From assembly GCF_016765655.2 (NCBI RefSeq), contig NZ_CP086106.1:2228501-2292500 (forward strand): a stretch of 64,000 nt of DNA. Reading direction: 5' to 3'. The notes under the pieces are model-generated. The model was given only the letters and a program-made list of their open reading frames with translations, was not told the origin of the DNA and ran no database searches. A program made the translations under genes and the position numbers. Position 1 is the stretch's first letter, and the number at the start of each line of letters is the position of its first letter. Source of the stretch: Skermanella mucosa (lineage in GTDB: Bacteria > Pseudomonadota > Alphaproteobacteria > Azospirillales > Azospirillaceae). Of the stretch, positions 313-44,755 are shown in pieces.

Positions 313-6342
<6,030 letters not shown>

Positions 6343-6718
6343 CAAGTAAGCCCTCCCTACGCCTGTATAATAAGTGCGGCAACCTGCGTGATGACACGGA
6401 GCCGCGATTGGCTGGGCGGACATTTTCAGAAAGCGATTTCAGTAATATTACAAGTCGATGATAATCGGCTTGGCTCGATTATTGGATTAATCCAAACGGC
6501 CTTAAAAATTTACATATAATAATATTAAAATAATAGGTTAATGTTCTTGTGTCGGCTCTCGGATCGTGGACTGGAGCACCATCGATTCCACTGTCCGCAC
6601 CAGGCGTTGGCCAAGGTTCATGGGTCCGGATACCGCAGCCACCTCGTGGAAGGCGGCACCTTCGACGAGGTAGTGCGGGTCCGGTCGAATGTCGAACTGC
6701 CGAGCCGGCTCGTTATCC
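6343..6718. other. Intergenic region with AT-rich promoter stretch
   Basis: This gap separates the giant phosphatase gene from the end of the upstream block. Positions 6425-6545 are strikingly AT-rich for this window and probably hold the promoter of the minus-strand phosphatase gene. No clear Pho box was recognised. Nothing coding is supported. Confidence 0.4.
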
Positions 6719-8023
6719 TCAGCCGGCCCTCTCCAGGCCGCACCAGCCCGCCATGAACAGGGCGAGGACCCGCGTCACGTCCCGCAGGCTGTCGAGCGAC
6801 ACGGACTCATCGATGCCGTGGATGCCGGCGGCCTCGGGGCCGTAGCAGGTGGCCGGCGTGTTTCCGTAGAGATTGAAGAAGCGGGCATCGGTGGTGCAGG
6901 TCGCGGCCAGGTCGGCCGGTTCGCCGCCGAGCACCGTCCGGTGGCTGTCGGCCAGCATGCGCATCATCGGGTGCTGTCGGTCGATCACGCAGCCCTCGGC
7001 CTGGAAGCCCCGCCACTCCACCTCGACCCGCAGCCCGCCCAGCTCCCTTTCCGCCTCGCGCACGGTTCCCAGGACGGCGTCGCGCACCTCGGCCGTGGTC
7101 ATGCCGGGATAGAAGCCGATCCGGACGTCGATCGTGCAGCGCGACGGAACCGAGGACGTCCATTCGCCGCCCTCGATCCTGCCCAGGTTGAAGTTCACGG
7201 GATGGCGGTGGTCGGCGTATGCGGGATGGCGATGTCCCGGCTCGTTCCAGCGCTCCTCCAGCCGGCGCAGACGGTCCATCAGGGCGAAGGCGCTCTCGAT
7301 GGCGTTGCTCCCGGCCGAGGTGTCCAGCACATGCGCCGGCTTGCCGGTGACGGTCAGGCGCACCCACATCACGCCCAGCTGCGCCGTCATGAGGGTGTGG
7401 TCGAAGGGCTCGGGGATGACCGCGGCGTCGGCGCGGTAGCCGCGGTGGAGGCAGGCCAGCGCGCCGTTGCCGGTGCATTCCTCCTCCACCACGGACTGGA
7501 GATAGACCGGCGCCGCCGGGGCGAACCCCAGCTCGCGGAGCGCCCGGAAGGCGGTGGTGTAGGCGGCGATCCCGGCCTTCATGTCGCCGGAGCCACGGCC
7601 GAACAGCCGCCCGTCGCGCACCACGGGCTCATAGGGCGGGTTGCTCCAGAGCTCTCCCGGTCCTTCGGGAACCACGTCGATATGGCCGTTCAGGATGAGC
7701 GAGCGCCCCGTCGCCCCGCGCGGCCGGTGGATGCCCACCACATTCTCCCGCCCGTCATAGGACATGACCGAGGGGGAGTAGCCGGGCAGGGCGCGGATCG
7801 CGTCCTCGTCGATGGCGAAGCGGTCCACCTCCAGTCCCAGATCGGCGAACGCCGATTCCATCACGGCCTGGGCGCCCTGTTCGTTGCCGAGCGTGGAGGG
7901 TTCCCCCACCAGGGCGGACAGCAGCGCCACGTTGGCGTCCTGGAGCGCGTCAACCGCGTCGATGACGGCCTGCCGCAATCCCCCGTCCGGAAGCCCGCCG
8001 TCGGAAGCAATACCCTTGTCCAT
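6719..8023 (-). CDS. M20 family ArgE/DapE-type deacylase
   Basis: This is a 434-residue zinc amidohydrolase of the acetylornithine deacetylase/succinyl-diaminopimelate desuccinylase family. The first metal motif GHIDVV lies at residues 113-118, GRGSGDMKAG follows about 30 residues later with the bridging Asp, and EEECTGNGA holds the catalytic Glu pair. The family hydrolyses N-acyl bonds of amino-acid-like substrates in the cytoplasm. AAGGAG precedes the ATG. It is the last gene of block A, 15 bp after the exporter gene, so it probably removes an acyl group from an imported catabolite rather than serving arginine or lysine synthesis. The exact substrate is not readable. Confidence 0.9.
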   Translation of the reverse strand: MDKGIASDGGLPDGGLRQAVIDAVDALQDANVALLSALVGEPSTLGNEQGAQAVMESAFADLGLEVDRFAIDEDAIRALPGYSPSVMSYDGRENVVGIHRPRGATGRSLILNGHIDVVPEGPGELWSNPPYEPVVRDGRLFGRGSGDMKAGIAAYTTAFRALRELGFAPAAPVYLQSVVEEECTGNGALACLHRGYRADAAVIPEPFDHTLMTAQLGVMWVRLTVTGKPAHVLDTSAGSNAIESAFALMDRLRRLEERWNEPGHRHPAYADHRHPVNFNLGRIEGGEWTSSVPSRCTIDVRIGFYPGMTTAEVRDAVLGTVREAERELGGLRVEVEWRGFQAEGCVIDRQHPMMRMLADSHRTVLGGEPADLAATCTTDARFFNLYGNTPATCYGPEAAGIHGIDESVSLDSLRDVTRVLALFMAGWCGLERAG

Positions 8024-8038
8024 TGTTTTTCTCCTTTT

Positions 8039-8974
8039 TCATCCGTTCCGGCGCCGCCGCACCATGACGCAGGCGACGGCGGAAACCACCAGGGCGAGCG
8101 AGACCAGCACGCGCGCCGTCAGCGGGTCGCCGAGGACCAGGACGGAGCCGGCGACGCCCACCACCGGTATCACCAGGGTGGCGATGGTCGATTGCGCGAC
8201 GGTGAGCCGCTTGACGATGACGAACCACAGGATCTGCGCGACGCAGATGGAGAAGACGAGGTGATAGCCCAGGGCCAGCCAGGTCGACAGGTGCCAGGAG
8301 GCCGGCCCCGGCGCGGACTCCAGCACGGCCGCCAGGACGATCACCGGCAGGGCCGACAGGGCGTATTGCCAGCCGGTCACCACGACGGCGTGGCTCTCCC
8401 AAATGCCGCGCCGTTTCATCAGCACGGTCCCCAGGGCCCAGGACACGGCCGCAGTGATGACCAGGAGCGGTCCCGCAAGGTTCCCGGCTCCACCCCGCAG
8501 GGCTTCCGGACCGAGCAAGACCAGCAGCCCGCCCAGCCCGAGCGTCAGGCCGACGACCTGCCGCCCGCCCGGCCGCTCGCCCAGGAAGGGGATCGCCAGC
8601 AGGGCGGCCCAGACCGGCATGGTGAAGGCGATGATGGCGGCGCGCGAGGTCGGCATCATCAGCTGCGCGAAGGCCGTGCAGAGATTGAAGGCGAGGATGT
8701 TGAGCAGACCCGTCGCCGCCAGCCACGGCATTTCCGCAGCAGGCACCTTCAGCGGGAGTCCCCTGGCCCGTGCCCAGGCCAGCAGCGCCAGCGCTCCCGT
8801 GGAGAAGCCGATGGCGCGGAGCGTGATGGGCGGCAACTCGAACAGCACCGTTTTCACCGCCGGCCAGTTGCCGCCCCAGAACAGCCCGATCGCCAGGATC
8901 AGCACGACCTTCGCGACGGTCTGCCGGGCATCGGGAATGGTGCCGGCGGACGGTGCTTCGGCGTGCGAGCCCAT
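8039..8974 (-). CDS. EamA family (DMT superfamily) transporter
   Basis: This is a 311-residue integral membrane protein with about ten hydrophobic segments arranged as two EamA repeats. The first includes FWGGNWPAVK near the N-terminus, and the second ends in a basic RRRRNG tail. The family exports or exchanges amino acids, metabolites or drugs across the inner membrane. The frame is open further upstream to 9226, but that part is compositionally a shadow of the cupin gene. The ATG at 8974 gives a normal family length and lies 5 bp after the cupin stop. In block A it may export a pathway by-product. Confidence 0.85.
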   Translation of the reverse strand: MGSHAEAPSAGTIPDARQTVAKVVLILAIGLFWGGNWPAVKTVLFELPPITLRAIGFSTGALALLAWARARGLPLKVPAAEMPWLAATGLLNILAFNLCTAFAQLMMPTSRAAIIAFTMPVWAALLAIPFLGERPGGRQVVGLTLGLGGLLVLLGPEALRGGAGNLAGPLLVITAAVSWALGTVLMKRRGIWESHAVVVTGWQYALSALPVIVLAAVLESAPGPASWHLSTWLALGYHLVFSICVAQILWFVIVKRLTVAQSTIATLVIPVVGVAGSVLVLGDPLTARVLVSLALVVSAVACVMVRRRRNG

Positions 8975-8979
8975 CGCGG

Positions 8980-9300
8980 CTATGACCGGGCCGAAGCGGG
9001 CTCCAGGAACTCGACCTCCACGAAGACGAGATCGCCGTCGCCGTCGTTGATCACGTTGTGCGACACGCCGGCGGAGCGGAAATAGCTCCGGCCGGGCTCC
9101 AACTCGGCATGGTTCACCGTGCCGTCCGGCATTTCCAGCCGCATGCGGCTGCGGGTGACCGGGACGATCACGTAGTCGTACTCGTGGGTATGGGCGCCCG
9201 TCTCGGCACCCGGCGCGAAGCGCCACTCGGTGACGCGGGTGCGGCCGTTCTCGAGGTGCTGGTGCGGCGTCGCCTTGGGGCGGGAGGCAGTGTCGGTCAT
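8980..9300 (-). CDS. Small cupin-domain protein
   Basis: This is a 106-residue single-domain cupin. The first metal-binding motif appears as HTHEYDYVIVPV, and the second half has YFRSAGVSHNVINDGDGD. Proteins of this size in catabolic operons act as small isomerases, lyases or ligand sensors, so a function cannot be assigned. It is tightly packed between the deacetylase-like gene (17 bp away) and the exporter gene (5 bp), which supports co-transcription with block A. Confidence 0.85.
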   Translation of the reverse strand: MTDTASRPKATPHQHLENGRTRVTEWRFAPGAETGAHTHEYDYVIVPVTRSRMRLEMPDGTVNHAELEPGRSYFRSAGVSHNVINDGDGDLVFVEVEFLEPASARS

Positions 9301-9317
9301 GGCTTGGGTTTCCGGGG

Positions 9318-10382
9318 TCAGGAGGCGGAAGGGAGGCGGTGGGCGGCTTCGAACCCGTCCAGGAAGCTCGCGAGGTTCGCGGCGAGGTGGTCGACCGCGT
9401 AGCCGCCTTCCTGGATCAGCACCGTCGGCAGGGCCGCCTCGGCGATGATGCGGCCCAGCCGGCCGAAGCCGGGCGTGGTGACGCCGAAGGCCGCCAGGGG
9501 ATCGTTCTTGAAGGTGTCGAAGCCCAAGGACAGGACGAGCAGCGACGGGGCGAACCGCCCGATGGCGGCAAGGCCGTCCCCGACCGAGGCCAGGAAGGCT
9601 TCCTCGGAGGTGCCGAGCGGCAGGGGCAGGTTGAGGGTGTAACCTTCCCCGCGGCCAGTGCCGCGCTCGTGCGCATGGCCGGCCATGAAGGGATAGAACT
9701 CCATCGGGTCGGCGTGGACCGACACGAAGAACACGTCGTCGCGCTCCCGGAAGATCGCCTGGGTGCCGTTGCCGTGGTGGACGTCCACGTCGAACACCGC
9801 CACGCGCGGCGGCAGGCCGCGCGCCGCCAGCAGGCGAAGCGCCTCCTGCGCCGCGATCGCGGCATGGTTCAGGTAGCAGAAGCCACCCGCCATGTCCCGG
9901 CCGGCATGGTGCCCCGGCGGCCGGCAGAGCGCGTAGGCCGCCGCCTCTCCGCCCGTGGCGACGGCCCGCGCCGCGGCCACGGCGCAGTCGGAGGCCGCCT
10001 TGGTGGCCGCCCAGGTTCCCTCGGCGATCGGGCAGGCCGTGTCGCTCATGTGGAAGCCCGCCTGGCCGACCACGCCGGAGGGGTACGAGAGCATGTCCGG
10101 CCCGCGATGGACGTTGGGGATCACCGCCGGCGAGGCGTCGGGCAGGGCCGTCCAGCGGGCGTGGGCGGTTTCCAGGAAGGCCAGGTATTCCGGCGAATGC
10201 ACGGCGGCCCGGGGTGCCGCCCCCGCGTCCGGGGCCTGTTCCAGGCGGTCGCCGCGCCGGACGAGGGCGTCGAGCACGGCCTGCACGCGCTCGGGCTTCT
10301 CTGGCACCGGCTTGGGCTGGCCGCGCACCAGGAACTGCGGCGGCCGGTGCAGCACGGTATCGGGATGGTGGAAGCAGCGCAT
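9318..10382 (-). CDS. Histone deacetylase-fold amidohydrolase (acetylpolyamine amidohydrolase-like)
   Basis: This is a 354-residue zinc hydrolase of the HDAC/AcuC/acetylpolyamine amidohydrolase superfamily. Diagnostic segments are RPPGHHAGRDMAGGFCYLNH (catalytic His pair), FDVDVHHGNGTQ (zinc Asp and His), LSLGFDTFKNDP (third zinc ligand) and IQEGGY near the C-terminus. Bacterial members usually deacetylate small molecules such as acetylpolyamines. GGAG lies 6 bp upstream of the ATG. With an M20 deacylase in the same operon, block A contains two distinct N-deacylating enzymes, suggesting an N-acylated amine or amino-acid substrate. The open frame continues upstream, but that stretch is antisense to nothing recognisable and overlaps the PanE-like gene. 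Confidence 0.9.
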   Translation of the reverse strand: MRCFHHPDTVLHRPPQFLVRGQPKPVPEKPERVQAVLDALVRRGDRLEQAPDAGAAPRAAVHSPEYLAFLETAHARWTALPDASPAVIPNVHRGPDMLSYPSGVVGQAGFHMSDTACPIAEGTWAATKAASDCAVAAARAVATGGEAAAYALCRPPGHHAGRDMAGGFCYLNHAAIAAQEALRLLAARGLPPRVAVFDVDVHHGNGTQAIFRERDDVFFVSVHADPMEFYPFMAGHAHERGTGRGEGYTLNLPLPLGTSEEAFLASVGDGLAAIGRFAPSLLVLSLGFDTFKNDPLAAFGVTTPGFGRLGRIIAEAALPTVLIQEGGYAVDHLAANLASFLDGFEAAHRLPSAS

Positions 10383-10444
10383 CGGGGTCTCCGTCAGTTT
10401 GGTGGCGCTGTCGCGCGGGTGGGGAAGGTTTCCGTCATGCCCGT

Positions 10445-11443
10445 TCAGGCCGCCATGCCGGCCGGGCCGCTGCCGCGCTGGCGGGCCCTCATCTCCACCA
10501 GGGCGGCGACCGTCTCCACGGTCGGCGTCGGCACCCCGGCCAGCGCTCCCAGCTCGGCTACGGCGCGGACGATCGCCTCGATCTCCAGCCGCCGGCCGGC
10601 TTCCATGTCCTGAAGCATGCTGGTCCTGAAGTCGCCGACCGCGGCGGCCGCCGCGATGCGCGCATCGATGTCGGCGGCGGACCGGACGCCCAGGCGCTCG
10701 GCCACGGCGCGGGCCTCCTGCATCAGCGTCCTGGCCACCGTGCGGGTCCCGGGATCGACGCACAGCGCCCCCATGGTGGCTCCGGTCAGGGCGCTCAGCG
10801 GGTTGAAGGCGAGGTTGCCCCACAGCTTGGTCCAGATGTCGGAGCGGATGTCGAGGCTGCCGCGCGCCTGGAACCCGGCGAGGCTGAACAGCTCGACGAT
10901 GCCTTCCACCGCCTGCGTCCTGCGGCCGAGCGGGTCGCCGAAGACGAAGCGCTGGTCGTCCACATGGCGGATGCGGCCCGGCGCCTCCCCCTCGACCGAC
11001 ACCCAGGCGACGGCCCCGACCAGCCGGTCCGCCGGGATCGACCGCCACAGCGTGCCGTCCGGGTCCACGGACTTCAGCCGGTACGACCCCAGCGGCTCCG
11101 GCTGGCCCAGCGGGTACCACCAGGGGATGCCGTTGACCATGGGCACCACGGCGGTCTCCGGCCCGGCGAGGCTGGCCAGCGTGTCGAGCGCGCCGCCCAG
11201 CGCGTGCGCCTTCACGCACAGGAAGACCGCGTCCTGCGTCCCGGCCGACAGGGCATCGTCGGTCACCCGGACCGGCACGCGGGAGACGCGCCCCAGCGGC
11301 GTCGCCAGGGTGATCCCGTCCCGGCCGATCGCCTCGGCGGCCCGGGGGCGGGCGACCAGCGTCACCTCGGCCGGCGTCGTGGTCAGGCGGGCGGCCAGCA
11401 GGCAGCCGATGGATCCCGCCCCCACGACGGCGATCTTCCTCAT
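10445..11443 (-). CDS. Ketopantoate reductase family (PanE/ApbA-like) oxidoreductase
   Basis: This is a 332-residue NADP-dependent 2-dehydropantoate 2-reductase family protein. The Rossmann motif GAGSIGCLLAARL is at residues about 8-20. The C-terminal helical domain contains KLWGNLAFNPLSALTGA, with the conserved Lys and Asn of the family. The ATG overlaps the stop of the ABC ATPase gene as ATGA (11440-11443), indicating translational coupling. Its place in a catabolic operon argues that it reduces a pathway 2-oxo acid rather than serving pantothenate synthesis. Many bacteria carry several paralogues of unknown substrate. Confidence 0.88.
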   Translation of the reverse strand: MRKIAVVGAGSIGCLLAARLTTTPAEVTLVARPRAAEAIGRDGITLATPLGRVSRVPVRVTDDALSAGTQDAVFLCVKAHALGGALDTLASLAGPETAVVPMVNGIPWWYPLGQPEPLGSYRLKSVDPDGTLWRSIPADRLVGAVAWVSVEGEAPGRIRHVDDQRFVFGDPLGRRTQAVEGIVELFSLAGFQARGSLDIRSDIWTKLWGNLAFNPLSALTGATMGALCVDPGTRTVARTLMQEARAVAERLGVRSAADIDARIAAAAAVGDFRTSMLQDMEAGRRLEIEAIVRAVAELGALAGVPTPTVETVAALVEMRARQRGSGPAGMAA

Positions 11444-13134
11444 GCCACCGCTCCCCGGCCGGCGGTGCCGGAAGCGCCGTGCCGGTGCCGGAGGTTTTCC
11501 GGGATCTCCCACTCCTTGCCCGGGATCGCGTCGAGCAGGGTCCGGGTATAGGCGTGCCGCGGGTTCTGGAAGACCTCGCGCGCGGTGTTCAGCTCGACCA
11601 CGCGGCCCCGCTGCATGACCGCGATGGTGTCGCAGACCTGGGCCGCGATCCGCAGGTCGTGGGTGATGAACAGCATGGCGAGCCCCAGCCGGTGGCGGAT
11701 CTCGTCGAGCAGGTCGAGCACCTGCCGCTGCACCGACACGTCCAGGGCCGACACCGGCTCGTCCGCGATGATCAGCTTCGGCTCCAGCGCCAGCGCGCGG
11801 GCGATGGAGATGCGCTGGCGCTGCCCGCCGGAGAACTCGTGCGGATAGCGGTCCGCGGCGCTCTCCGGCAGTCCCACCAGCCGAAGCAGTTCGCGCGCCC
11901 GAGCCGCCGCCTTTTCCTTCGGCTCCCCGAACGCCACCGGCCCCTGGGCGATGATATCAGCCACCCGGTGCCGCGGGTTGAGCGAGGCATAGGGGTCCTG
12001 GAAGATCATCTGGATGTCCTTGCGGACCGGCCGGAACTGCTTCCGGCTCAGCCCCGCCAGGTCCTGGCCCTGGAACAGGATGCGCCCGCCGTCGGCCTTG
12101 TTCAGGCCGACGATGCAGCGGCCGAGCGTCGATTTGCCGGACCCGCTCTCTCCCACCACGCCCAGCGTCTCGCCGGGATGGATGGTGAGGCTGATGTCGT
12201 CGCCGGCCACCAGTTCCCGGCCCTTGCGGAACAGGCCGCCGCCGATATGGAAGACCTTCCGCACCTTGTCCGCCGTCAGCAGGGCGTCGCCCCGCTTGGT
12301 GAAGTCGGCGCGGTGCTCGATATAGTGCGGCACGGCGGCGATCAGCTCGCAGGTATAGGGATGCCGGGGGCGGTTCAGCACCTGCTCGGCCGGCCCGACC
12401 TCGACGCACTTGCCATGCTGCATGACCGCGACCGTGGTCGCGATCTCGGCCACGACGCCGAAATCGTGGGTGATGAACATGACGCCCATCCGGCGCTCGG
12501 TCTGGATCTTGCGGATCAGGTCGAGGATCTGCCGCTGCGTCGTCACGTCCAGTGCCGTTGTGGGCTCGTCCGCGATCAGCAAGTCGGGTTCCAGCGCCAG
12601 GGCCATGGCGATCATGACCCGCTGCCGCTGGCCGCCGGACAGGCGGAACGGGTAGCTGCGCCGCAGCCGTTCCGGGTCGGGCAGGCCGACATCCTCCAGC
12701 AGTTCCAGGACGCGGGCGCGCCGGGCCGCCCTGTCCATGGCGGAGTGGGCCTTCAGGCTCTCCTCGATCTGGTCGCCGACCTTCATCAGCGGATTGAGCG
12801 CCGTCATCGGCTCCTGGAAGATCATCGCGATGCGGCCGCCGCGCAGGGACCGCTGCTCGGCGTCGCTCATGGCCAGGATGTCGCGGCCGAGATAGTCGGC
12901 CTGGCCACCCGCCACCCTGACATGCGGCTTCGGGAGCAGGCCCATGATGGCGTGGGCGGTCATCGACTTGCCGGAGCCGGACTCGCCGACCACGCACAGG
13001 ATCTCGTTCCTGTGGATCCGGAGGCTGACGGCCTCGACCGCGTGGGGCCGCTCCGCCCCGTGGGGCAGGGCGACGGTCAGGTCGCGGACGTCGAGCAGAA
13101 TGTCGTCGGCGGTTTCACCGGGCGCCATGGTCAT
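11440..13134 (-). CDS. Dipeptide/oligopeptide-type ABC transporter, fused double ATPase
   Basis: These 564 residues contain two complete ABC ATPase modules in one chain, equivalent to DppD+DppF or GsiA. Each module has a Walker A GESGSGKS, a signature LSGGQRQRV or FSGGQRQRI, a Walker [13 protein letters not shown] or [12 protein letters not shown], and a switch His. Each is followed by the oligopeptide-transporter C-terminal extension ([26 protein letters not shown]). It energises import through the two adjacent permeases. The start overlaps the permease stop as ATGA at 13131-13134. Confidence 0.95.
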
Positions 13135-34807: not shown

Positions 34808-34843
34808 AAAAAGCCGGTCGAACCTGGGTCCGACCGGCTTTTT
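34808..34843 (-). terminator. Rho-independent terminator after left tRNA-Met 3' half
   Basis: AAAAAGCCGGTCG (34808-34820) pairs with CGACCGGCTTTTT (34831-34843) around a 10-bp loop; read on the minus strand the stem ends in a T run. It directly follows the tRNA 3' end (34847), as expected for a genuine tRNA transcription unit. Confidence 0.8.
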
Positions 34844-34844
34844 T

Positions 34845-35026
34845 ACTGGTAGCGGAGGAGGGATTTGAACCCCCGACACAAGGATTATGATGTCTCCACC
34901 TAATGACTGCGATACGCCCGAACCTCTTGATCTTGCTGATCTTTTCGGTAGCGAAGACCGATCTGATAGGGGTTCTCTGCATTGACAGTCGGATGTGAGT
35001 CGGCACACTGCCACCTCCTCATCCCG
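34845..35026. repeat. Left arm of perfect 182-bp inverted repeat
   Basis: This segment is the exact reverse complement of 39150-39331 over 182 bp by direct comparison. The outer 45 bp are the 3' half of a tRNA-Met gene; the inner part of about 137 bp is element-end sequence. Identity stops abruptly at both edges. It replaces the C-terminal coding part of the integrase remnant next to it. Confidence 0.92.
34847..34891 (-). other. tRNA-Met(CAT) 3' half, attachment-site core (left)
   Basis: This 45-bp segment begins at the anticodon loop (ATCATAA, anticodon CAT). It continues through the 3' anticodon stem, a T-arm with the TTCAAAT loop, the acceptor strand CTCCGCT, the discriminator A and the encoded CCA. 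The 5' half is absent: D-arm and 5' acceptor sequence are not found adjacent. This is the classic footprint of a tyrosine integrase that recombines at a tRNA anticodon loop. It is not a functional tRNA gene as it stands. Confidence 0.8.
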
Positions 35027-35649
35027 ATATCGTTGGCCTCGCCCATGCGGGTCATCGCGGTGCGGCGGAGATCCTGGAGCCGCAAGCCCGTCAGGCCCGC
35101 CTCCACCATGGTGGCCGTCCACCGCTCCTCGAACCGTCGCTGCTTGAAAGGCTCTCCACGGTGGTTCAGGAGGACGTATTCACCCACGCGGGGATGGGCA
35201 TCCAAGGCATCCTGAGCGGGTTCATGACCAGGATGCTGACCGCCTGAGCGGTCTTGCCTTGGGTCAAGCTGATGCGACGACCGTCGTACTGTGAGCATTG
35301 GAGTCGGAGCAGATCCCCATGCCGGTGGGCCGTATAGAGACCCAGCAAGAGGTCCATTTGCATCGTTTGGTCAGCGACAGCCAGCAAGCTCCGTTGGTCA
35401 TCGTATGACCACACCGGCCGGCGGGGCTGGACCGAAAGATGCTCGACAACGAGTACCGGGTTGAGCAGCATCCGTCGCCGCCGGATGTCGAAGCTGCACA
35501 CGAGGCTCAAGACCGCGAGGGTTATGGTTGCAGTGCCGTGGATGCTGCCGGAAGGCTTCCTGGAGGGTGTAGACGTACTCGACGCCGCCCTCTCCGCCCA
35601 ACCGTGCCAATGGTATGTCACCGATAAGCTTGATTAGCTCGCTCATCAA
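35027..35649 (-). pseudogene. Decayed tyrosine recombinase (integrase), C-terminally truncated
   Basis: Fragments of one tyrosine integrase lie in two or more frames. One is a core-binding and catalytic-start part (TMQMDLLLGLYTAHRHGDLL, then SQYDGRRISLTQGKTAQ). After a frameshift near 35225 comes DALDAHPRVGEYVLLNHRG and then GLRLQDLRRTAMTRMGEA. The motif that should read HxLRR has Gln in place of the catalytic His, and the region with the catalytic Tyr has been replaced by the 182-bp repeat starting at 35026. The gene points toward the tRNA half, as integrases do beside their attachment site. It is inactive by these criteria. Confidence 0.8.
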
Positions 35650-35742
35650 AAGTGGTGGCCGAAGACAGAACTAGGTTGAAAAGCTTGCATCTATATGAAA
35701 GATCTATAGGAATGATGACTATCGGATTGAACTGGCTGCAAC

Positions 35743-36873
35743 GTGGATCATAACATATCAAAGGGTAAGTTGCAGGAAAGCCTGGGAGTCTGGCTCAGCA
35801 GACCAATTCCTGCACTCGCCCAAATCGACATAGCATCGGGCTACGCATCTTTGGGGACATCAACGGGTTTGGTGCGGACCGAGAATCAAGACAAGGTTCT
35901 AGCGGCCCGTATCCGCTCATCCTACAATCATGGGAAATCCACATACATTTTCGCGGTATGCGACGGCATGGGAGGGATGCAAGAGGGTGAACTTGCAGCC
36001 CGCATTGCAATGTCAACATTCGTTTCCGCTATGGTGGCAACTGACGACCGTCCACTTCAGGACCGAGTATGCGAGGCGGCTCATTATGCTAATGTAAGCG
36101 TCAACCGTAGACTTCAGGAACGCGGGGGAACAACATTAACTGCAGTAGCAATCGAATCGGAGACGGATGCACAAATATTTGCGGTACACGTAGGCGACAG
36201 TCGCCTCTACCGGTACGCGAAAAGTGCTGGTTTGCACCAGATTACGACGGATGACACATTAGCAGGACTTGTTAAAAATCGGAACGCCGCAGGCAATGAA
36301 GAAGTTCCCGGTCGCAAGGGGCTTCTACAATATGTTGGGATGGGCGAAGGTCTCGACCCGCACGTCATGAATTTGAAGTTCGGTCCAGAAGATGATCTCC
36401 TACTGCTAGTAACAGATGGCGTTTATGCAATTGGAGACGAGCTTTCGTCATCAATTTTGTATAATGCTGAGAGGCCATCGCTCGGCGTTCAGAGGTTGTT
36501 GAGAGTTGCGAACTGGACCGGCGGGCGTGACAATGCCTCTGCTGTTATATGTGATTTGAAGGCACTATTCCCTATCCGTCATGGACGCGACAACAGGCTA
36601 TCTGGTGTAGAGGCTTACGATGCTTACGGCCAGTTTGACTTCTGGTGGCCTCCCGAAAGCGTTCATGAACATCCTGAGCGAGTGGGCCGTGAGCAAGCGG
36701 TAATAACTCCGAGGCAAAACCAGAAAAGGATTCCTAAGAGACGGCACAGCAAAAAGGTGCCTAGAATACAACCGATGCAAGAACCTGTTCATCAGTCAGA
36801 GCGGGTATTTGATGAGCGATCTACATCGGAAAAACCCAAGCCACAGATAAGGATTGACTTCACAGATGAGTAA
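35743..36873 (+). CDS. PP2C-family Ser/Thr protein phosphatase
   Basis: This is 376 residues. A PP2C domain covers about 30-275, with all metal and phosphate motifs present: RTENQDKV, FAVCDGMGGMQEGE, GGTTLTAV, VHVGDSRLYR, LLVTDGV and GRDNASAVI. It would dephosphorylate phospho-Ser/Thr with Mn or Mg. A C-terminal tail of about 100 residues is basic, Pro/Gln-rich and probably disordered. No membrane segment is seen. The start is GTG at 35743 with a weak ribosome site and is uncertain. Its end overlaps the first kinase gene by 8 bp, so phosphatase and kinase are made together. Base composition is visibly more AT-rich than the flanks, indicating transfer. Confidence 0.92.
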   Translation: MDHNISKGKLQESLGVWLSRPIPALAQIDIASGYASLGTSTGLVRTENQDKVLAARIRSSYNHGKSTYIFAVCDGMGGMQEGELAARIAMSTFVSAMVATDDRPLQDRVCEAAHYANVSVNRRLQERGGTTLTAVAIESETDAQIFAVHVGDSRLYRYAKSAGLHQITTDDTLAGLVKNRNAAGNEEVPGRKGLLQYVGMGEGLDPHVMNLKFGPEDDLLLLVTDGVYAIGDELSSSILYNAERPSLGVQRLLRVANWTGGRDNASAVICDLKALFPIRHGRDNRLSGVEAYDAYGQFDFWWPPESVHEHPERVGREQAVITPRQNQKRIPKRRHSKKVPRIQPMQEPVHQSERVFDERSTSEKPKPQIRIDFTDE

Positions 36874-37945
36874 TCCACCACTGGTCCTTCCAGATCGCTA
36901 TGAAATAAAAGGCGATCCTATGTCTGGCGGTATGGGCAGCGTCATTGTATGTCGCGACAACTTCCTTGAACGTCAGGTCGCAATTAAGGTGTTGCAAGAA
37001 GTGACAGAGTATCGCCGCCTCTCTGATGAATTGACTGCTCTGCAAAGTATACGGTCAAAGCACGTAGTGGAGATCTTCGATGTGATCACCGATACTTCAG
37101 GGAGAGCAGTTGGCATTGTTCAGGATTACATACCTGGCTTGGATTTATTCGCTGTTGCCAAAACGGGTCTGTCCAGCAACGCGTATTTGAAAACTATCTT
37201 CCAGATAGCATCTGGCATCTCTGATATCCACTCGCACGGCTTGATACATCGAGACATCAAGCCGAGCAATATGAAACTCGATGGAGAGGGTATAGTAAAG
37301 TTGTATGACTTCGGGCTGTCCCGATTCTCTGGAGTGGATTCCGCAACCAAAGGATTTGTGGGAACGGTCGGCTTCGCTGCTCCCGAATTGTATCAAACTG
37401 GTACAGCGGAGTTTTCAGAAGCGGTTGATACCTATGCCTTTGGAGCAACGGCATGGTACCTCGCGGAACGCACATTACCAGCCGCATTGATGGCAGTGCC
37501 GCCGGAGCCTTTTTCAACAGCCAGCAGCTTTTCTCAGTTGACTATAGGTATACCAACGACATTAACTGATATCCTTGACAGTACTTTGTCGGAGAGTCCT
37601 GAAGATCGACCGACAATGCAGGAAGTTACCGACGCTATTGGACGTCACCTTCTATATGGAAGGCATAGAGCTATACTTATTAATGGTCCGGCTGTGTATG
37701 AATTCACCAAAATAGGACAGGTGGTGACCATAGGCAATACCAAGGTTGGCTCACTTAAAATCCGGTACAATGGCTTTGGATACGTTGCCGAAAGTGTTCT
37801 CGATGAAGTATATGTTAATGCTTCACTTATATATGATGGATTTTTGTTTCCAGGATCTTGCGTAATTTCTATCGGGGCACCATATAGGGGCTTTGATAGA
37901 GCGTTTGTTACATTAGACATCTCTCAGCCGGAGGTTGTTCTGTGA
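36866..37945 (+). CDS. Ser/Thr protein kinase with possible FHA-like C-terminal domain
   Basis: This is 359 residues. An N-terminal eukaryotic-type kinase domain (about 10-265) has a loose glycine loop (SGGMGSVIV), VAIKVL lysine, HRDIKPSN catalytic loop and DFG as YDFGLSR, followed by a GTVGFAAPE activation segment. The C-terminal 95 residues are beta-rich; VTIG and later ESVLDEVYVNASLIYDGF recall the end of an FHA domain, but the phosphothreonine-binding residues are not clear, so this is tentative. There is no transmembrane segment, unlike PknB-type receptors. The ATG at 36866 lies inside the phosphatase gene; a TTG four codons earlier is possible. Confidence 0.9.
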   Translation: MSNPPLVLPDRYEIKGDPMSGGMGSVIVCRDNFLERQVAIKVLQEVTEYRRLSDELTALQSIRSKHVVEIFDVITDTSGRAVGIVQDYIPGLDLFAVAKTGLSSNAYLKTIFQIASGISDIHSHGLIHRDIKPSNMKLDGEGIVKLYDFGLSRFSGVDSATKGFVGTVGFAAPELYQTGTAEFSEAVDTYAFGATAWYLAERTLPAALMAVPPEPFSTASSFSQLTIGIPTTLTDILDSTLSESPEDRPTMQEVTDAIGRHLLYGRHRAILINGPAVYEFTKIGQVVTIGNTKVGSLKIRYNGFGYVAESVLDEVYVNASLIYDGFLFPGSCVISIGAPYRGFDRAFVTLDISQPEVVL

Positions 37946-39024
37946 GCATAGCAATTCACAAAACTGGTGATATTGTTGCTGATCGTTATGAAGTAATCTC
38001 ATATGTTGGTGAAGGAGGCATGCAGCAGGTATTTAGAGCTAAAGACTTATCCCTGAAACGTATTGTTGCGGTAAAGACGCCAAAAAACAATACTGCTCAA
38101 AAGAGGTTCAAAAGAAGTGCCATTGTTAGTGCAAGGATCAACCACCCAAATGTGGCGAAAACGCTCGATTACCTTAGTTTCCAGGATCGAGACTATTTGG
38201 TTGAGGAATTTATTGATGGAAGAGATCTCAAGATTGTCCTCACCAATGAAATTCCCTTGCTTGACCCATATCTCTCAGCCAGAGTTCTACACTATCTCTC
38301 TAAAGGCCTGGCTGCGTCACATCATGTAGATGTAGTTCATCGTGACCTCAAGCCCAGCAACATTATGGTGGTTGGGGGACATGGTTTGTCACAAGTCAAG
38401 ATAACAGACTTTGGAATCGCGAAGTTAGCCGAAGATGAACTTGCAGAAGCGAAGGAAGGAGGCGACGCATCTATCACTGGATCACAGACCATGGTAGGTG
38501 CCCTGCCTTACATGTCTCCTGAAATGATTGAGAGCCCCAGAGACGCTGGCAAACCGGCAGATGTTTGGGCTCTTGGAGCCATGATGTACGAGTTAATGAG
38601 CGGCAAGAAACCTTTCGGATCAAGTTTGAAGGCTATTCATGCAATAATTGAAGCAAAACCTCCTGCCATTCCTCCTGAGATATCGGCCAACTCGCAGATG
38701 TCTCTTCTTGGCAAGGAACTTTTCAGTATCGTTTCGTCTTGCCTTCAGAAGGATGAAGCCAGTCGGCCGACGGCTGATAGTTTAGTCAGCCAATGTGAAC
38801 AATTATGCTACTCGATGGAGAGTCGTGAGATTGGCGTCCTCAGAGTTATGCAACGACCGACCTATGGGTTTATTCAAGATGCGTCAGGTCATGATGTTTT
38901 CTTCCATGTTGCAAGTGTCTACGGCCGCCAACCAGCAGTCGGAGAGAAGGTCAGTTTTGCAAGATTTCCTGGGGGCGAAGCGGATCGGGCTCATCCAGTG
39001 ATTGCCTTGAGGTTACATTCTTAA
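37942..39024 (+). CDS. Ser/Thr protein kinase fused to a cold-shock-like domain
   Basis: This is 360 residues. A kinase domain (about 10-285) has GEGGMQQVF, VAVKTP, HRDLKPSN, ITDFGIAK, a threonine/serine-rich activation segment (ITGSQTMVGALPYMSPE) and ADVWALGAMMYEL. The last 65 residues match a cold-shock OB fold: GVLRVMQRPTYGFIQ, DVFFHVASV and VGEKVSFARFPG correspond to the two RNP-type strands and final strand. This suggests a kinase controlled by, or guided to, single-stranded nucleic acid. The GTG start overlaps the first kinase stop as GTGA, with GGAGG 7 bp upstream, indicating coupling. Confidence 0.9.
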   Translation: MSIAIHKTGDIVADRYEVISYVGEGGMQQVFRAKDLSLKRIVAVKTPKNNTAQKRFKRSAIVSARINHPNVAKTLDYLSFQDRDYLVEEFIDGRDLKIVLTNEIPLLDPYLSARVLHYLSKGLAASHHVDVVHRDLKPSNIMVVGGHGLSQVKITDFGIAKLAEDELAEAKEGGDASITGSQTMVGALPYMSPEMIESPRDAGKPADVWALGAMMYELMSGKKPFGSSLKAIHAIIEAKPPAIPPEISANSQMSLLGKELFSIVSSCLQKDEASRPTADSLVSQCEQLCYSMESREIGVLRVMQRPTYGFIQDASGHDVFFHVASVYGRQPAVGEKVSFARFPGGEADRAHPVIALRLHS

Positions 39025-39149
39025 AGCTTTCGTGCTGTTGTTAGAGCGGCATCTGATAAGGCTTCATATGCGGGTTAGCAGCCCAGTGACTTGAGCGATA
39101 ATGCCGCCACACACACCCGAGTGAGCCTGATCAGGAATGGCTCAAGTTG
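39025..39149. other. Short gap between kinase gene and right repeat arm
   Basis: These 125 bp separate the second kinase stop from the right arm of the 182-bp repeat. No integrase remnant matching the left side is present here, so only the repeat arm, not the neighbouring integrase sequence, was duplicated. No terminator is obvious. Confidence 0.4.
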
Positions 39150-39331
39150 CGGGATGAGGAGGTGGCAGTGTGCCGACTCACATCCGACTGTCAATGCAGA
39201 GAACCCCTATCAGATCGGTCTTCGCTACCGAAAAGATCAGCAAGATCAAGAGGTTCGGGCGTATCGCAGTCATTAGGTGGAGACATCATAATCCTTGTGT
39301 CGGGGGTTCAAATCCCTCCTCCGCTACCAGT
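39150..39331. repeat. Right arm of perfect 182-bp inverted repeat
   Basis: This is the exact reverse complement of 34845-35026. Identity ends at CCAGT just past the tRNA CCA, after which each side carries a different terminator. The two arms enclose 35027-39149, with the decayed integrase and the phosphatase-kinase genes. Confidence 0.92.
39285..39329 (+). other. tRNA-Met(CAT) 3' half, attachment-site core (right)
   Basis: This is the same 45-bp core as 34847-34891 but on the plus strand, from the CAT anticodon loop to the encoded CCA. No 5' tRNA half is present upstream. It is followed by an independent terminator at 39333-39369 and then by a second integrase gene that points toward it, so this site appears to have been used by more than one element. 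Confidence 0.8.
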
Positions 39332-39332
39332 T

Positions 39333-39369
39333 AAAACCCCTGCCAAGTCAAGCACTTGGCAGGGGTTTT
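39333..39369 (+). terminator. Rho-independent terminator after right tRNA-Met 3' half
   Basis: AAAACCCCTGCCAAGT (39333-39348) pairs with ACTTGGCAGGGGTTTT (39354-39369) around a 5-bp loop and ends in a T run. Its sequence differs entirely from the terminator at the left arm, so the two tRNA halves derive from different genomic sites. Confidence 0.85.
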
Positions 39370-39577
39370 TCGTTTGGCGGGCCAGTCGTCCGGCGATCAA
39401 TCCGCGTTCCCTGTGCCGACCTTTGTACCGGGGCGGATCACCGCATGCAGGTCGTCGACTCTGAGGAAGACGTAGGCCCTTTCGGTCATGGCAACCGACT
39501 TGTGCCCCAACCACTTGCTGACCCGGTATAGGTCCATACCGTAGTCCTGTAGGAGGCGGCAGCCACAGGTTCGGCGG

Positions 39578-41020
39578 GATTGCGTCCGTCAAGCTGGTGT
39601 AAATTGGGAGGAGGCCATCAGCACCGTAGGTCAGGTCTTGGTCAGCGCGGCGAGGGCTGCTTCATCACTGGCGACCATGCCGGTCATGGTCTCAAGCGTC
39701 AGGTAACGATGTTGTAGTTGCCACTCGTCGTTTTGCTCGAGAAGTACAGCACCAACAAGCCTGCGAACACTGGCCTCGTTCGGGAAGATCCCGACGACAT
39801 TGGTCCGGCGCTTTACTTCCTTGTTCAGGCGTTCGATCGGATTGGTCGAGTGCAATTTGCTACGATGGGGTTCAGGATAGTCCATGTAGGCGAGCACGTC
39901 GTGTTCGGCATCGTCAAGCAGGGCGGCGACCTTGGGAAAGCGTGGGCGGAGCTGATCGGCGACGTGGCGCCAGGCTTGTCCGGCAGTCTCGCGATCGGGC
40001 TGGACGAAGACCTGCCGGACAGCGGCCGAGACGACCGACTGCTGGCTTTTCGGCACATGGGCCAAGAGCGATCTCATGAAATGAACCCGGCACCTCTGCC
40101 AAGTGGCGCTCAGGACCTGGGTGATAGCCGCCTTGAGACCTTCGTGGGCGTCGGAGATCACCAGCTTCACGCCCTTCAGACCGCGACGGACCAGCCCCCG
40201 CAGAAACTCGATCCAGAAGGTGGCGGCTTCCGACTGGCCCAGGCCGAGCCCGAGGATCTCGCGGCGGCCGTCCTGGTTGACACCGGTGGCGATTATCGCC
40301 GCGATCGACACGATGCGGCCATTCTGGCGGACCTTGATGTAGGTCGCATCGAGCCAGAGGTAGGGCCACTCGCCGTCCAGCGGCCGCTCGAGGAAGGACA
40401 GCACGCGGGTGTCGATGTCCTGGCACAGGGCCGAGACCTGCGACTTGGAGATGCCGGTCATGCCCAGCGCCTGGACCAGGTCATCGACCTTGCGGGTGGA
40501 CACGCCCTGGATCCACGCTTCCTGGATCACGGCCGTCAGCGCCTTCTCGGCGGTCTTGCGAGGCTCCAGGAAGGCCGGAAAGTAGGTGCCCTGGCGCAGC
40601 TTCGGGATCTTCAGGTCGAGCGTGCCGAGCCGGGTTTCCAGCTGACGATCCCGATGTCCGTTGCGGTATGTGGTGCGCTCGTCGGACCGCTCATGGCGCC
40701 CGGCGCCGATCAGGCCGTCGACCTCGAACTCCATCAGTCGCTGGAGCGTGTGAGCGGCGATGGCGCGCAGGAAGTCGCCATCGGTACTGGCCTGGATCTG
40801 GTCGAGCAGAAGTGTCATCGTATCCTTGGTCATCATGCCTCTCTCGGGGTCTGGTCTCGTGTCGCAACTCGACCTTACCTGAAGAGCGTGATGACCACCT
40901 CCACGTCGTTGCGGCCCCAGCGGCGGAGGGTTGAGGCGGCCCGGGCTCCGCTCTGCGAGCTCCACCCGGGCCGCCTCAACCCTTCAAGGGCCAATTTCCA
41001 CCACTCCGTTGGACGTTACC
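39578..41020. mobile_element. IS256-family insertion sequence, complete
   Basis: This 1443-bp element is bounded by the 8-bp target duplication TTCGGCGG (39570-39577 and 41021-41028). The imperfect terminal inverted repeats of about 30 bp share CGTCC, TGGTG and AAATTGG. It encodes one intact transposase. The exact duplication and uninterrupted gene suggest a fairly recent, possibly still mobile insertion. Confidence 0.92.
39631..40836 (-). CDS. IS256 family transposase
   Basis: This is a 401-residue DDE transposase of the IS256 (mutator-like) family. The catalytic residues are Asp in YLWLDATYIKV, Asp in VISDAHEGL and Glu in NPIERLNKEVKRR, with the family CRVHFMRSLLAHVP helix between. It catalyses cut-and-paste or copy-out transposition of the element around it. 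The ATG at 40836 is preceded by GAGAGG; a second ATG is the next codon. The open frame upstream reaches toward the terminal repeat and is not coding. Confidence 0.95.
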   Translation of the reverse strand: MMTKDTMTLLLDQIQASTDGDFLRAIAAHTLQRLMEFEVDGLIGAGRHERSDERTTYRNGHRDRQLETRLGTLDLKIPKLRQGTYFPAFLEPRKTAEKALTAVIQEAWIQGVSTRKVDDLVQALGMTGISKSQVSALCQDIDTRVLSFLERPLDGEWPYLWLDATYIKVRQNGRIVSIAAIIATGVNQDGRREILGLGLGQSEAATFWIEFLRGLVRRGLKGVKLVISDAHEGLKAAITQVLSATWQRCRVHFMRSLLAHVPKSQQSVVSAAVRQVFVQPDRETAGQAWRHVADQLRPRFPKVAALLDDAEHDVLAYMDYPEPHRSKLHSTNPIERLNKEVKRRTNVVGIFPNEASVRRLVGAVLLEQNDEWQLQHRYLTLETMTGMVASDEAALAALTKT

Positions 41021-41870
41021 TTCGGCGGAGATCATGCCATCGAAGATCGCTTATCCCAGCCCGCGATGCGGCCCCATCCAGCCCACGAGTTAGCCTGAGG
41101 TACCGTGATCCATCTGGTTTGCAGAACACGTAGGGCGAGGTCAGATGTCGTGGCTGCTGTGCCAGGATCTGTGCGGCCTGATCGGTGAGGGGGACCACCC
41201 TTGGATTGCTGGTCTTGGTTTTGGTGAGAGTGAGTTCGTGACGCCGCTGGTTGACCTGTGACCACTCCAGAGACAGTTGCTCCTCCAGGCGAAGACCGGT
41301 TTCGATAGCGAACCCGACCATCGGCTTGAGATAAGACCCCGCCGCAACGAGAAGCCGTTCCTGCTCCTCATGGCTCAGGTAGCGTCTTCGAGGGTCTCCT
41401 TCCTTCAAGAGTCGCCGGTCCAGGGTCCGGATCGGATTTGCATCAACCCACTCCCATGAGATAGCGAGTTGCAGCATCGATGAGAGGCAAGCCAGGTCGC
41501 GTCTGATTGTTGATGGCGATATGCCCTGTTTTCTCCGGAAGCTGACATAGGCTAGGATCTTCGTCTTCGTGACCTCATCCAGATAGGCCCCGACGAAGTG
41601 CGGGTTCAACATCTTTAGGCTGAAGAGGTATCGGCGGGCAGCTAGAGGTTTGAGCGATGGAAGGTGCTCGCCGATAAATCGCTCGACAGCCTCATCAAAG
41701 GTGTGACGGGGACGGCCGCCTCGGTCCAGCCGTCGGCGTTCCTCAACCAGTTGAGCAAGATACTGCTGAGCCACAACTTTCGACGAGGTTCGGGCTGACC
41801 TTCGGACCTCCTGTCCGTGCCATGTAAACCGGACCCACCATGTCCGCCCCCGCTTGTAAACCGCTGCCAC

Positions 41871-42222
41871 GTAGATCCTCCTGCACCGGCAAATCCAGTT
41901 GTCCATGCAGGACGGTCCCATAGACCGAGCCGCTGTCAATCTGACCACTGGTTCCGCTTTGGATCGGCCCTAGAACATACCAGTCGGAGTCCGGTTTGGT
42001 GGAGCCGAGGAGGGGCATGTGAGGGCCTTGGCTGCTGAGGACAGTGCTATTGTCTGCCGCCTACTATACTGAGCCAAGCTTTGTGTCGCGGCAGATTTGG
42101 ATTGCCGAAATGGCTGGGCCAACTCGCCATTCTATCAGACCATGTTCCTTGGCTCATTATTCCCGTTTTTGATTTTTCCGGGGGTGTTCCTGCAATTTGG
42201 ACCCGCGGGGTGAGGATTGTTC
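41871..42222. other. Divergent promoter region between integrase and helicase
   Basis: About 350 bp separate the minus-strand integrase start from the plus-strand helicase gene. No gene is supported. It should contain both promoters, and in elements of this kind often an excision or repressor site, but none was recognised. Confidence 0.35.
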
Positions 42223-43298
42223 ATGGTGACCCTCGTCGCGGCAATCGAGCCCCGACTGAATGAGGGTTATGGAATGAGCCTTGTCACCAAGTTCGCTGGA
42301 CAGCCGGATGTTGTCGGTATCCTCGAGGAGATTCGCCTGGGTACAACGGCCCTGGACCGTGCAGCCCCTGCCAACTTCGCCGACACCGTACTGGCCCGGC
42401 TCCCGGTCGAGAACCTGAGCCCCGACGATGTTGATGTCGTCGCGGAGTTCTTGAAGGGTGAGGTCGGCCTGAACGTCAACCTGACCAAGCGAAAGATCGC
42501 CAGGGCCAAGGTCGCCGAGGTTCTGGGATTTTTCCCGACGAGCCTTGCTGAATTCATTCGGGCCTACACCGATCAGTTTGGCTTGGAGCCGACGCTCAAG
42601 GACAGGGTCCGGGTTACCAAGCGGGTGTTGATCCGGGCGGACGGTAGCGAAGTCCGCCTCCAGGAGACCGACGACGAGTACCTCGACCGCTTCAACGAAA
42701 TCTGGAGTCCGCGGGAGATCGACGTGAGGCGGGTCGTCGATCAGATGAAGATCTTCAACGAGGATCACAAGCTCGGCTTCACCGAGGCCGGCATTGAGCG
42801 GGCTTGGAACGAATGGGTGGTGCAGAAGCGGGCGGAGATCCTGTTCTGGCTCGCTGACAAAGTGGGCGGCGGCATTCAGGAAGATGAGCACGCCGAGACA
42901 GACCAGCAGTGGGACCTGTTCCTCCAGGCTGTGCTGGCCGACTACGACCAGGATCATCACCTGGTCAAGGCTGTCCTCCAGCACTTCATCTGGCAGGTCG
43001 GCCGGAAGATCCGGGGTATGACGGTCGGCAATCACATGATGCCGGTGATCATCGGCCAGCAGGGTGGCGGCAAGACCGAGATGGTCAAGCGGTTCCTGTC
43101 GCCGCTCGGCGACGCCTGGGTGGACAGCGACTGGGACTGTCGGGAATTCCGTGCTTGGCGGGGCGGGTTCAGTATCAGGCGGTCATCGCCTTTGCGAACC
43201 GGTCGCCGAAGATGACAGCCATCTGGGCTTTGGCGGCCGTCCATTCCCGGGGCGGCATCTTCCAGTCTTTCTCCGCGCGGTTCAAGACGAGAAACAGG

Positions 43299-44755
43299 GT
43301 AATTGCTCACGGGGTTGGCGGATCGCGAGCCGTCAGGTGACGGCGAAGGTTCCACCGACGAGGTGGCGTACGGCGGTCCAGGCGGATTGACCTTGCCGAC
43401 GCGCCGTTCCTGTCACGGATCGATACCCGGCGTGGATGCCGGGTCCCCAGTCGGATCGGAAGCCGTTGGTGACCTTGCGGAAGACCACGGACGGGCGAAT
43501 TTCCTGCTCGCTGGCGTTGTTGGTCGGCGGCACGCGGCGGTCGGCGAGGAAGACGAAGAACTTGCCGCGCCATGCCTTGACCAGCCGCTGCAACTCGCGT
43601 CCGGCCGGATGGGCGGCGGGGGTACCGACCAGGGCATCGAGGCCGCGCTCGGCCTTTGCGGCGTAGGCGGCAAGCGTGCTGTCCTTCAGGCCCGGTCTTC
43701 GTTTGCCGACGCGGATGGCCCAGAGCAGGTGATCGCGGATCCTGGGTGCGACCATGGTGTCGCCGCAGTCGATGGCGTACTGCACGTCCCTGAGAACGTG
43801 GGCCAGGCAGACCTGGTGGACCCGTCCCAGTTCCTGCTGCCCGGCGTAGCGGTCGGAGATCCAGACCTCGGGCCGATGCCCGCCCAGGATCCCGGCGGCC
43901 ACCGCCCGGGCGCGGCTGGGGGCGATGGTGTGCAGCACGGCTTGCCCGGAATGGAACACCCATTGCCAGTGGATCACGCCGTTGACCCGCGTCGTGGTCT
44001 CGTCCGAGGCGATGACGGAAGCCCCCAGGAGTTTGGCCTTGATCGCCGCGCAGGCCGTGTCGAACGCCGTGCCCATGCGGCGCAACGCATTGGCGATGGC
44101 GCCCTCTGAGATCGTCAGTCCGAACAACTCCTCCAGCATCCGCGACAGCCGCTCGAAGCCGACATGATGGCTGTGGTGCAGATAGGCCAGCAGTGCCCGG
44201 ATGCCCGGTCCGAACGGGGTGCCCGGCGGCATGGCGGCGGGCGGGGCGGCCCGGTAGCGCCGCCCGCAATCGCCGCACCGGCCGCCGAACAGCTCGACCC
44301 GCGTCACCACCGGGCGGATCACCGGAAGGTCGATGTGGTCGTAGCGGTGCCGGCACCGCTGGGCGCTCTCGGGCACCGCCGTCCCGCAATGCGGGCAGCC
44401 CTCGACCAGGCGGCGCTCGGTCCGGTCCGGATCGTCGGCCAGCGGGCGCGATACTCCGGGGCGCGACGGCCGCGGCTTGCGCCGGCGCTTGGCGTCCGCC
44501 GTACGCGACGCACCGCCGGGGCCGTCCTGCGACGGCGGAATGTGCGAATTGGCCGACGTCTTCCGCGGCTTCCCGATCAGCGCTTCCAGTTCGGCAACCC
44601 GCGCCGCCAGACGCTCGATCAGCGCCGCCTGCTCGACCAGCAGGGCGTCCTTCTCAGCCTCACTCAGACGGTAACGCGGCGGTTTCTCCATCCCATCCTT
44701 GACTCATATTCCAAGCCGCAGCGCAACCCTTTTCGCCAACCCCGTGAGCAATCAC
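43299..44755. mobile_element. IS66-family insertion sequence (single-gene type), complete
   Basis: This 1457-bp element is bounded by the 8-bp target duplication GAAACAGG (43291-43298 and 44756-44763). Its 22-bp terminal inverted repeats begin GTAATTGCTCACGGGG on the left and GTGATTGCTCACGGGG on the right and differ at one position. It lacks the tnpA and tnpB genes of canonical IS66 elements, fitting the ISBst12-like subgroup. It is the youngest layer of the nested structure. Confidence 0.92.
43333..44691 (-). CDS. IS66 family transposase (TnpC-like, ISBst12 subgroup)
   Basis: This is a 452-residue transposase. An N-terminal coiled-coil region (ALIERLAARVAELEALIGKP) and the SANSHIPPSQDGPG motif are followed by a zinc-binding CPHCG...CGDCG domain and a DDE core: Asp in IASDETTTRV, Asp in WISDRYAG, and Glu in NNASEQEIRPSV. 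AAGGA precedes the ATG. The frame is intact, so the element may be active. Confidence 0.95.
   Translation of the reverse strand: MEKPPRYRLSEAEKDALLVEQAALIERLAARVAELEALIGKPRKTSANSHIPPSQDGPGGASRTADAKRRRKPRPSRPGVSRPLADDPDRTERRLVEGCPHCGTAVPESAQRCRHRYDHIDLPVIRPVVTRVELFGGRCGDCGRRYRAAPPAAMPPGTPFGPGIRALLAYLHHSHHVGFERLSRMLEELFGLTISEGAIANALRRMGTAFDTACAAIKAKLLGASVIASDETTTRVNGVIHWQWVFHSGQAVLHTIAPSRARAVAAGILGGHRPEVWISDRYAGQQELGRVHQVCLAHVLRDVQYAIDCGDTMVAPRIRDHLLWAIRVGKRRPGLKDSTLAAYAAKAERGLDALVGTPAAHPAGRELQRLVKAWRGKFFVFLADRRVPPTNNASEQEIRPSVVFRKVTNGFRSDWGPGIHAGYRSVTGTARRQGQSAWTAVRHLVGGTFAVT

Follow-up and report, generated by a model that had tools for sequence, protein, structure and literature searches.

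A stretch of 64,000 nt from the Skermanella mucosa genome (contig NZ_CP086106.1, positions 2,228,501 to 2,292,500 of the forward strand; hereafter the window) carries, between two inverted repeat arms, three intact overlapping open reading frames (ORFs) on the plus strand that encode a PP2C-type Ser/Thr phosphatase followed by two Ser/Thr kinases, kinase 1 and kinase 2 (Table 1). Here we describe the gene content, gene order and motifs of this trio, two predicted C-terminal folds, its kinship and its island setting. The three genes had been read in the same way in a first-pass annotation made from the DNA letters and their ORFs, and the Pfam matches agree: PP2C_2 for the phosphatase (E 3.9e-8), and Pkinase for kinase 1 (2.7e-35) and kinase 2 (1.5e-46). 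The in-frame ATG at 36866 (MSNPPLVLPD) is the likelier start of kinase 1 than position 36854, and with this start the PP2C and kinase 1 genes overlap by 8 nt; the kinase 1 and kinase 2 ORFs overlap by GTGA. Also as annotated at first pass, the trio is AT-richer than its flanks, with a GC fraction of 0.480 against 0.689 on the left and 0.609 on the right; the lowest value for a non-overlapping stretch of equal length elsewhere in the window is 0.566.

The order of the genes is that of KKP (kinase-kinase-phosphatase, PfpC-PfkB-PfkA), which Guo et al. (Nat Commun 2024, PMC11341870) describe as a toxin-antitoxin and anti-phage module, mostly prophage-borne, in which a PP2C phosphatase is followed by an FHA-domain kinase, PfkB, and then by a cold-shock-domain kinase, PfkA, with a GFI/A motif. 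The published search rule (PMC11341870, section 29) looks for PP2C-kinase-kinase with each gene >900 and <1300 bp, and a place in a prophage or beside mobile-element genes is a further mark of KKP; in the window the order is the same, the three genes share a strand, each is 900-1300 bp long, and integrases and a transposase are adjacent. The first-pass annotation knew of no named system with this gene order, a view that we correct here: the system is already known, and the window trio is a further member of it. Few papers on KKP were found within the open-access literature searched, and the available passages of a paper on P2/P4 hotspots (PMC9122126) treat kinases in general terms only and name a phosphatase nowhere.

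The catalytic motifs GGM, HRD and DFG are intact in both kinases, as is DGMGG in the phosphatase. The C-terminal tail of kinase 2 matches the Pfam cold-shock family CSD (E 7.8e-6) and contains the motif YGFIQ; its structural model is confident (mean predicted local distance difference test score, pLDDT, 87.6), and the matches listed by Foldseek are cold-shock domains, the best at E 4.3e-6 and CspE at 1.6e-5. Among 15 aligned PfkA tails, the window protein included, 14 are matched by Pfam CSD at E<=1. The tail of kinase 1 is likewise modeled with confidence (pLDDT 87.9), and seven of its top ten Foldseek titles name FHA, the best match being 3po8 (probability 1.00, E 0.081). In an alignment of 14 PfkB tails, with columns judged by eye, no invariant arginine is seen at the expected phosphothreonine pocket.

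Table 1. Features of the kinase-kinase-phosphatase locus and its borders (window coordinates)
Feature	Position	Strand	Size or basis
Left arm: tRNA-Met 3' end and 3' tail of the tyrosine integrase int-B	34840-35026	-	repeat search
att-like core of 52 nt within the left arm	34840-34891		tRNA-Met 3' end
Further int-B remnant, no long open frame	35027-35640	-	ORF list, Pfam
PP2C-type Ser/Thr phosphatase, probable PfpC of KKP (antitoxin by homology)	35743-36873	+	376 aa, 1131 bp with stop
Ser/Thr kinase (kinase 1), C-terminal FHA-like fold, probable PfkB of KKP	36866-37945; longest ORF from 36854	+	363 aa, 1092 bp with stop (longest ORF)
Ser/Thr kinase (kinase 2), C-terminal cold-shock domain and GFI motif, probable PfkA of KKP	37942-39024	+	360 aa, 1083 bp with stop
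Right arm: int-B tail and tRNA-Met 3' end, in inverse orientation to the left arm	39150-39336	+	
Mutator-family (IS256-type) transposase adjoining the cut end of int-A	39631-40965	-	PF00872, E 1.1e-129
Integrase int-A without its C-terminal end	41016-41948	-	310 aa; Pfam; 366-aa copy known

We then turned to relatives of the trio. Searching by tblastn with kinase 1, we found trios on plasmids of Rhizobium, Agrobacterium, Xanthobacter and Pantoea, in a Klebsiella phage, and in a plasmid record of E. coli that also carries P2-family capsid genes, where PP2C is split into two ORFs. The same order, PP2C-PfkB-PfkA, is present in 22 of the 25 fetched loci with a PfkA relative of >200 bits (ORFs >=150 aa, E<=1e-8). 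Left out of this count beforehand were L004 (a copy of the E. coli trio with the split PP2C), L013, own-genome loci L001-L003, L014-L020, L137 and L138. Among the 22 trios, the PP2C of L112 is reduced to a fragment of 165 aa, and in L009 a transposase separates PP2C from the kinase. Of the 25 loci, L154 and L155 end too soon to contain the upstream genes in full, PfkB is cut in L023, and several are near-duplicates (e.g. L110/L111 and L012/L115). GFI or GFA occurs in the PfkA of 24 loci, the exception being L024, and the kinases of the window trio are 35-56% identical to those of the other fetched trios. In the eight annotated neighborhoods opened, the trios were not found mainly in type VI secretion or spore core loci, the setting that the first-pass annotation had named as telling against its reading.

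A 32-row tree of PfkA places the window protein in a single clade with 25 relatives (support 100/99), apart from six generic kinases; the tree has 27 inner branches, 13 of them with good support. Hosts are mixed within the clade: the Klebsiella phage groups (91/84) with plasmids of Agrobacterium and Rhizobium, a pattern suggestive of horizontal transfer. The module is rare: counted at E<=1e-55 with the window genome included, it occurs in 1 of 79 relatives, namely the window genome itself and none of the 78 others (all candidates scored), and in 1 of 385 genomes at class level (again its own) and 3 of 398 at phylum level (its own included), where at most five candidates per genome were scored and the counts may thus be too low. 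Near-identical copies of the E. coli trio are present in 14 of 5426 E. coli genomes, and in the two chromosomes opened the trio is part of a P2-type prophage, flanked by its replication endonuclease and portal genes; Phage_GPA and Phage_portal are also among the KKP neighbors named in the Fig. 3 legend of Guo et al. (PMC11341870). One such copy (L012, NZ_CP010235) is a complete trio whose PfkB and PfkA are 43% and 50% identical to those of the window but which, unlike the window trio, sits inside a P2-type prophage. Matches covering >=80% of kinase 1 came from 11 of 569 plasmid records and 1 of 48 phage records, the others being partial and, among the matches listed, mostly to the generic kinase. 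Viral contigs gave no relative when scanned with kinase 1 as the sole query, and a scan of genome contigs gave at least 580, swamped by generic kinases, with L023 and L024 alone among the 80 kept passing the 200-bit filter.

Several loci deserve separate mention. Planktothrix phage PaV-LD (L011, 4853-6807) encodes a PP2C and a PfkB-like kinase that is 51% identical to kinase 1 and lacks the C-terminal domain; no annotated second kinase adjoins, and the pair is possibly a reduced KKP. A KKP phosphatase ORF of 625 aa on a viral contig (L105, 2979-4856) is far longer than the others, and in a Pseudomonas metagenome-assembled genome (L023, 5800-8100), where PfkA is intact and PfkB cut, the preceding sequence resembles, by eye, filamentous-phage coat genes. 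As annotated, one rhizobial plasmid trio (L006, 3178-11980) has a Shedu-domain protein and an AAA/SbcD-like pair as neighbors, and two others (L007 and L008, ~4900-11970) have an ABC-three-component system.

The assignment to KKP has to be weighed against several observations. First, the cold-shock match of the window protein scores 26.1 bits, just below the cut-off of 27. Second, Pfam FHA (PF00498) matches none of the 14 PfkB tails at E<=1 (one of them, L114, has a PfkB score identical to that of the E. coli P2 prophage copy L012), and no Foldseek match of the kinase 1 tail reaches E 0.001. Third, the tree program gave a long-branch warning for the generic kinases, and kinship was drawn via other trios, with the proteins of the paper itself (MPAO1, Shewanella, Vibrio, E. 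coli 15EC039 and Salmonella CT18) outside the comparison. Fourth, the window trio is not recognizably in a prophage, as opposed to ~90% of the >1200 published KKP clusters (PMC11341870), and in a transposase-rich island its expression may have been lost. Against these stand the features that the trio shares with KKP: order, lengths, catalytic motifs, the cold-shock domain and GFI motif of the last kinase, the predicted FHA-like fold of the middle kinase and the link to mobile elements. It differs from KKP in being anchored at tRNA-Met in a chromosomal island, in its inverted arms of integrase tail and att sequence, and in the lack of a recognized prophage. Based on these observations, we consider it highly probable that the trio is a KKP module, PfpC-PfkB-PfkA, carried as cargo of a tRNA-Met island, and that by homology its kinases would be jointly toxic and restrained by the phosphatase.

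The arms that enclose the trio form an inverted repeat of 187 nt with one mismatch, and its perfect 182-nt core (34845-35026 / 39150-39331), already reported at first pass, is far beyond chance. The outer 52 nt of each arm are the 3' end of tRNA-Met, of which a third copy is found at the full tRNA-Met gene (98% over 52 nt). This gene lies outside the window, ~59 kb to the right of the right arm (G000:C1:2327018-2327094), where the 366-aa copy of int-A adjoins it in inverted orientation. The window has no complete tRNA according to ARAGORN, which at a loosened score returns noise only. The description of the cassette as tRNA-associated therefore has to be corrected: the arms contain just the tRNA-Met 3' end, and the complete gene is far away. 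The integrase debris reported alongside it is present on both sides, as a broken int-B remnant on the left and as int-A cut at the transposase on the right. The broken integrase 3' region that continues from the left arm (34900-35298) matches Phage_integrase at E 2.7e-4 and 21.2 bits, below the cut-off of 27.1, and part of the remnant beyond the arm (Table 1) has relatives at 83% identity in the sister genome G001. A transposon with terminal inverted repeats was ruled out, the arms consisting of tRNA end and integrase tail and the sequences immediately outside them being different. At both ends of the ~59-kb island, a region with an integrase and a weakly VapE-like gene occurs twice in inverted orientation (window ~39271-43300 and L022 12450-15063), in pieces that are 97.8 and 99.7% identical.

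The trio shares the island with a type I methylase (1.2e-152), a specificity subunit (2.5e-70) and a type IV restriction enzyme (4.9e-82). In a PHROGs scan of nine island proteins, with most island ORFs outside the scan, no structural phage gene was recognized; a weak terminase match (1.5e-5) concerned a RecD-like helicase, which matches exonuclease V best (2.7e-170). We compared four genomes of the genus (G000-G003; a fifth, G004, was left out). Facing away from the island, the surroundings of the tRNA-Met gene match in all four. On the side of integration, the second integrase, int-A, is common to G000 and G001 (98%), but no match between the genomes compared was found over the 2-5 kb past the left att copies or, for G003, to the left of the tRNA. 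The gene to the left of the trio looks by eye like a LysR-type regulator, and its relatives in G001 and G002 lie at other places, so that the left island border may be rearranged.

Sister genomes carry other modules at the tRNA-Met site. G001 has a similar layout: its inverted arms (210 bp, 95.7%; 450 bp, 100%) enclose ORFs that by eye look like an IS21-type pair and a further transposase, together with genes for 359 and 213 aa. These two genes are adjacent (L148, 8475-10208 on C1), and the 213-aa product looks membrane-bound by eye; the pair has no PADLOC match and no significant Pfam match, and is a candidate undescribed module. Relatives of the 359-aa protein occur in 13 Klebsiella phage records and two plasmids, in one of which the gene is flanked by a phage repressor and an integrase and has no obvious partner, and in the other of which it is followed by a hypothetical gene sized like the 213-aa partner. 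At the same site in G002 there is a pair matching the PADLOC predicted defence candidate PDC-M16A/B (L150, 5969-10719; E 0 and 2.7e-252). One could imagine from this that the arms mark a cargo slot of the genus beside tRNA-Met which exchanges modules carried elsewhere by P2-type phages (KKP here, the 359- and 213-aa pair in G001) and so captures immunity outside prophages, the G001 pair being a new defence system. We regard this proposal as unlikely: int-B arms were found in only 2 of the 45 genomes searched, excluding one 33-nt match, and a general slot thus goes beyond the evidence. Our literature search on this island type, judged by titles and abstracts, returned nothing relevant.

What the module does can be approached through its published counterparts. 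In Guo et al., the two KKP kinases are jointly toxic and the phosphatase relieves the toxicity; defence against lytic phages was reported for the P. aeruginosa KKP and, in E. coli, for four other modules (PMC11341870). From these modules we infer toxicity, defence, a trigger and any control of neighboring mobile elements for the window trio, whose most likely function would be infection-triggered growth arrest through kinase toxicity. In such a mechanism: (i) the two kinases would be active and toxic only together; (ii) PfpC would keep the kinases and their targets dephosphorylated; (iii) a phage protein would inhibit or remove PfpC and thereby release the kinases; and (iv) these would phosphorylate many host proteins, with growth arrest and failed phage production as the outcome, i.e. 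an abortive-type defence akin to a type VII-like toxin-antitoxin. The first-pass annotation had likewise envisaged a kinase-kinase-phosphatase switch with a likely defence role in a tRNA-linked island, which is consistent with the relatives in P2-type prophages, a Klebsiella phage and plasmids and with the anti-phage activity of homologous modules. Its suggestion that nucleic acid is sensed finds no parallel in the KKP studied with T4, where the phosphatase is the sensor and is bound and modestly inhibited by the phage replication protein Gp59 (PMC11341870).

A KKP-family module might instead serve mainly to stabilize the island or to control mobile elements residing with it, phage defence being secondary. 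The P. aeruginosa KKP controls production of the Pf prophage via phosphorylation of MvaU and PfiA (PMC11341870), and a later paper links degradation of the phosphatase to a Pf4 protein and reports phosphorylation of an antitoxin (PMC13048266); the window copy, for its part, sits amid integrases and transposases. We nevertheless judge this role rather unlikely, given the absence of a recognized structural phage gene from the nine island proteins scanned and the defence genes among the neighbors of relatives and among the island mates. That the trio is an inactive remnant, a cassette stranded by rearrangement and insertion sequences, is decidedly improbable: the flanking integrases are broken, transposases are frequent, and a simple scan for one promoter type found no sigma-70 site upstream of the PP2C gene and three sites in the region versus 4.3 expected from shuffles, but the three frames are unbroken, as are the catalytic motifs, the overlaps are coupled, and the promoter scan says nothing of other promoter types.

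The TerY-P triad consists of the vWA protein TerY, a kinase and a PP2C, and thus has kinase and PP2C in common with the trio, in which a Pfam vWA match is missing. That the trio belongs to a different system of this kind (TerY-P, PglW/BREX, MADS or type VI secretion regulation) has almost no chance of being right, since generic kinase models of MADS, PD-T4-6, PglW and Stk1 do match its kinase domains but the NCBIfam scores of kinase 2 are far below the curated cut-offs (MAD6, 130 versus 460; PglW, 79 versus 990) and no vWA, tellurite, BREX or secretion domain is found by Pfam. Among the PADLOC models listed, none fits the trio: PDC-M21C (2.6e-9) is the best for the phosphatase, and the kinases match 34 and 35 families, of which the best 25 in each case are all kinase models of other systems. 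TerY-P, PglW/BREX, MADS and Stk1/PASTA were rejected as giving generic kinase scores only, and the likeness drawn at first pass to Stk2 and PglW, like that to Stk1 and the other kinases listed, comes down to the generic kinase domain. Stk2 of Staphylococcus, likened by description, has kinase-dependent phage defence in common with KKP and, according to the discussion in PMC11341870, is a single host-encoded kinase, unlike the trio.

With the trio identified as a probable KKP, what stands out is its setting: a chromosomal copy with no recognized prophage, in a slot that holds other phage-type cargo in a sister genome, is less ordinary than the published majority. For KKPs outside prophages, the discussion in PMC11341870 leaves open whether they act in defence or in prophage control, and a copy such as this could allow the defence role to be separated from control of a prophage. 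The tRNA-Met hotspot is also a lead to more modules and, if the cargo-slot proposal were true, would represent a route by which phage-borne immunity is captured outside prophages.

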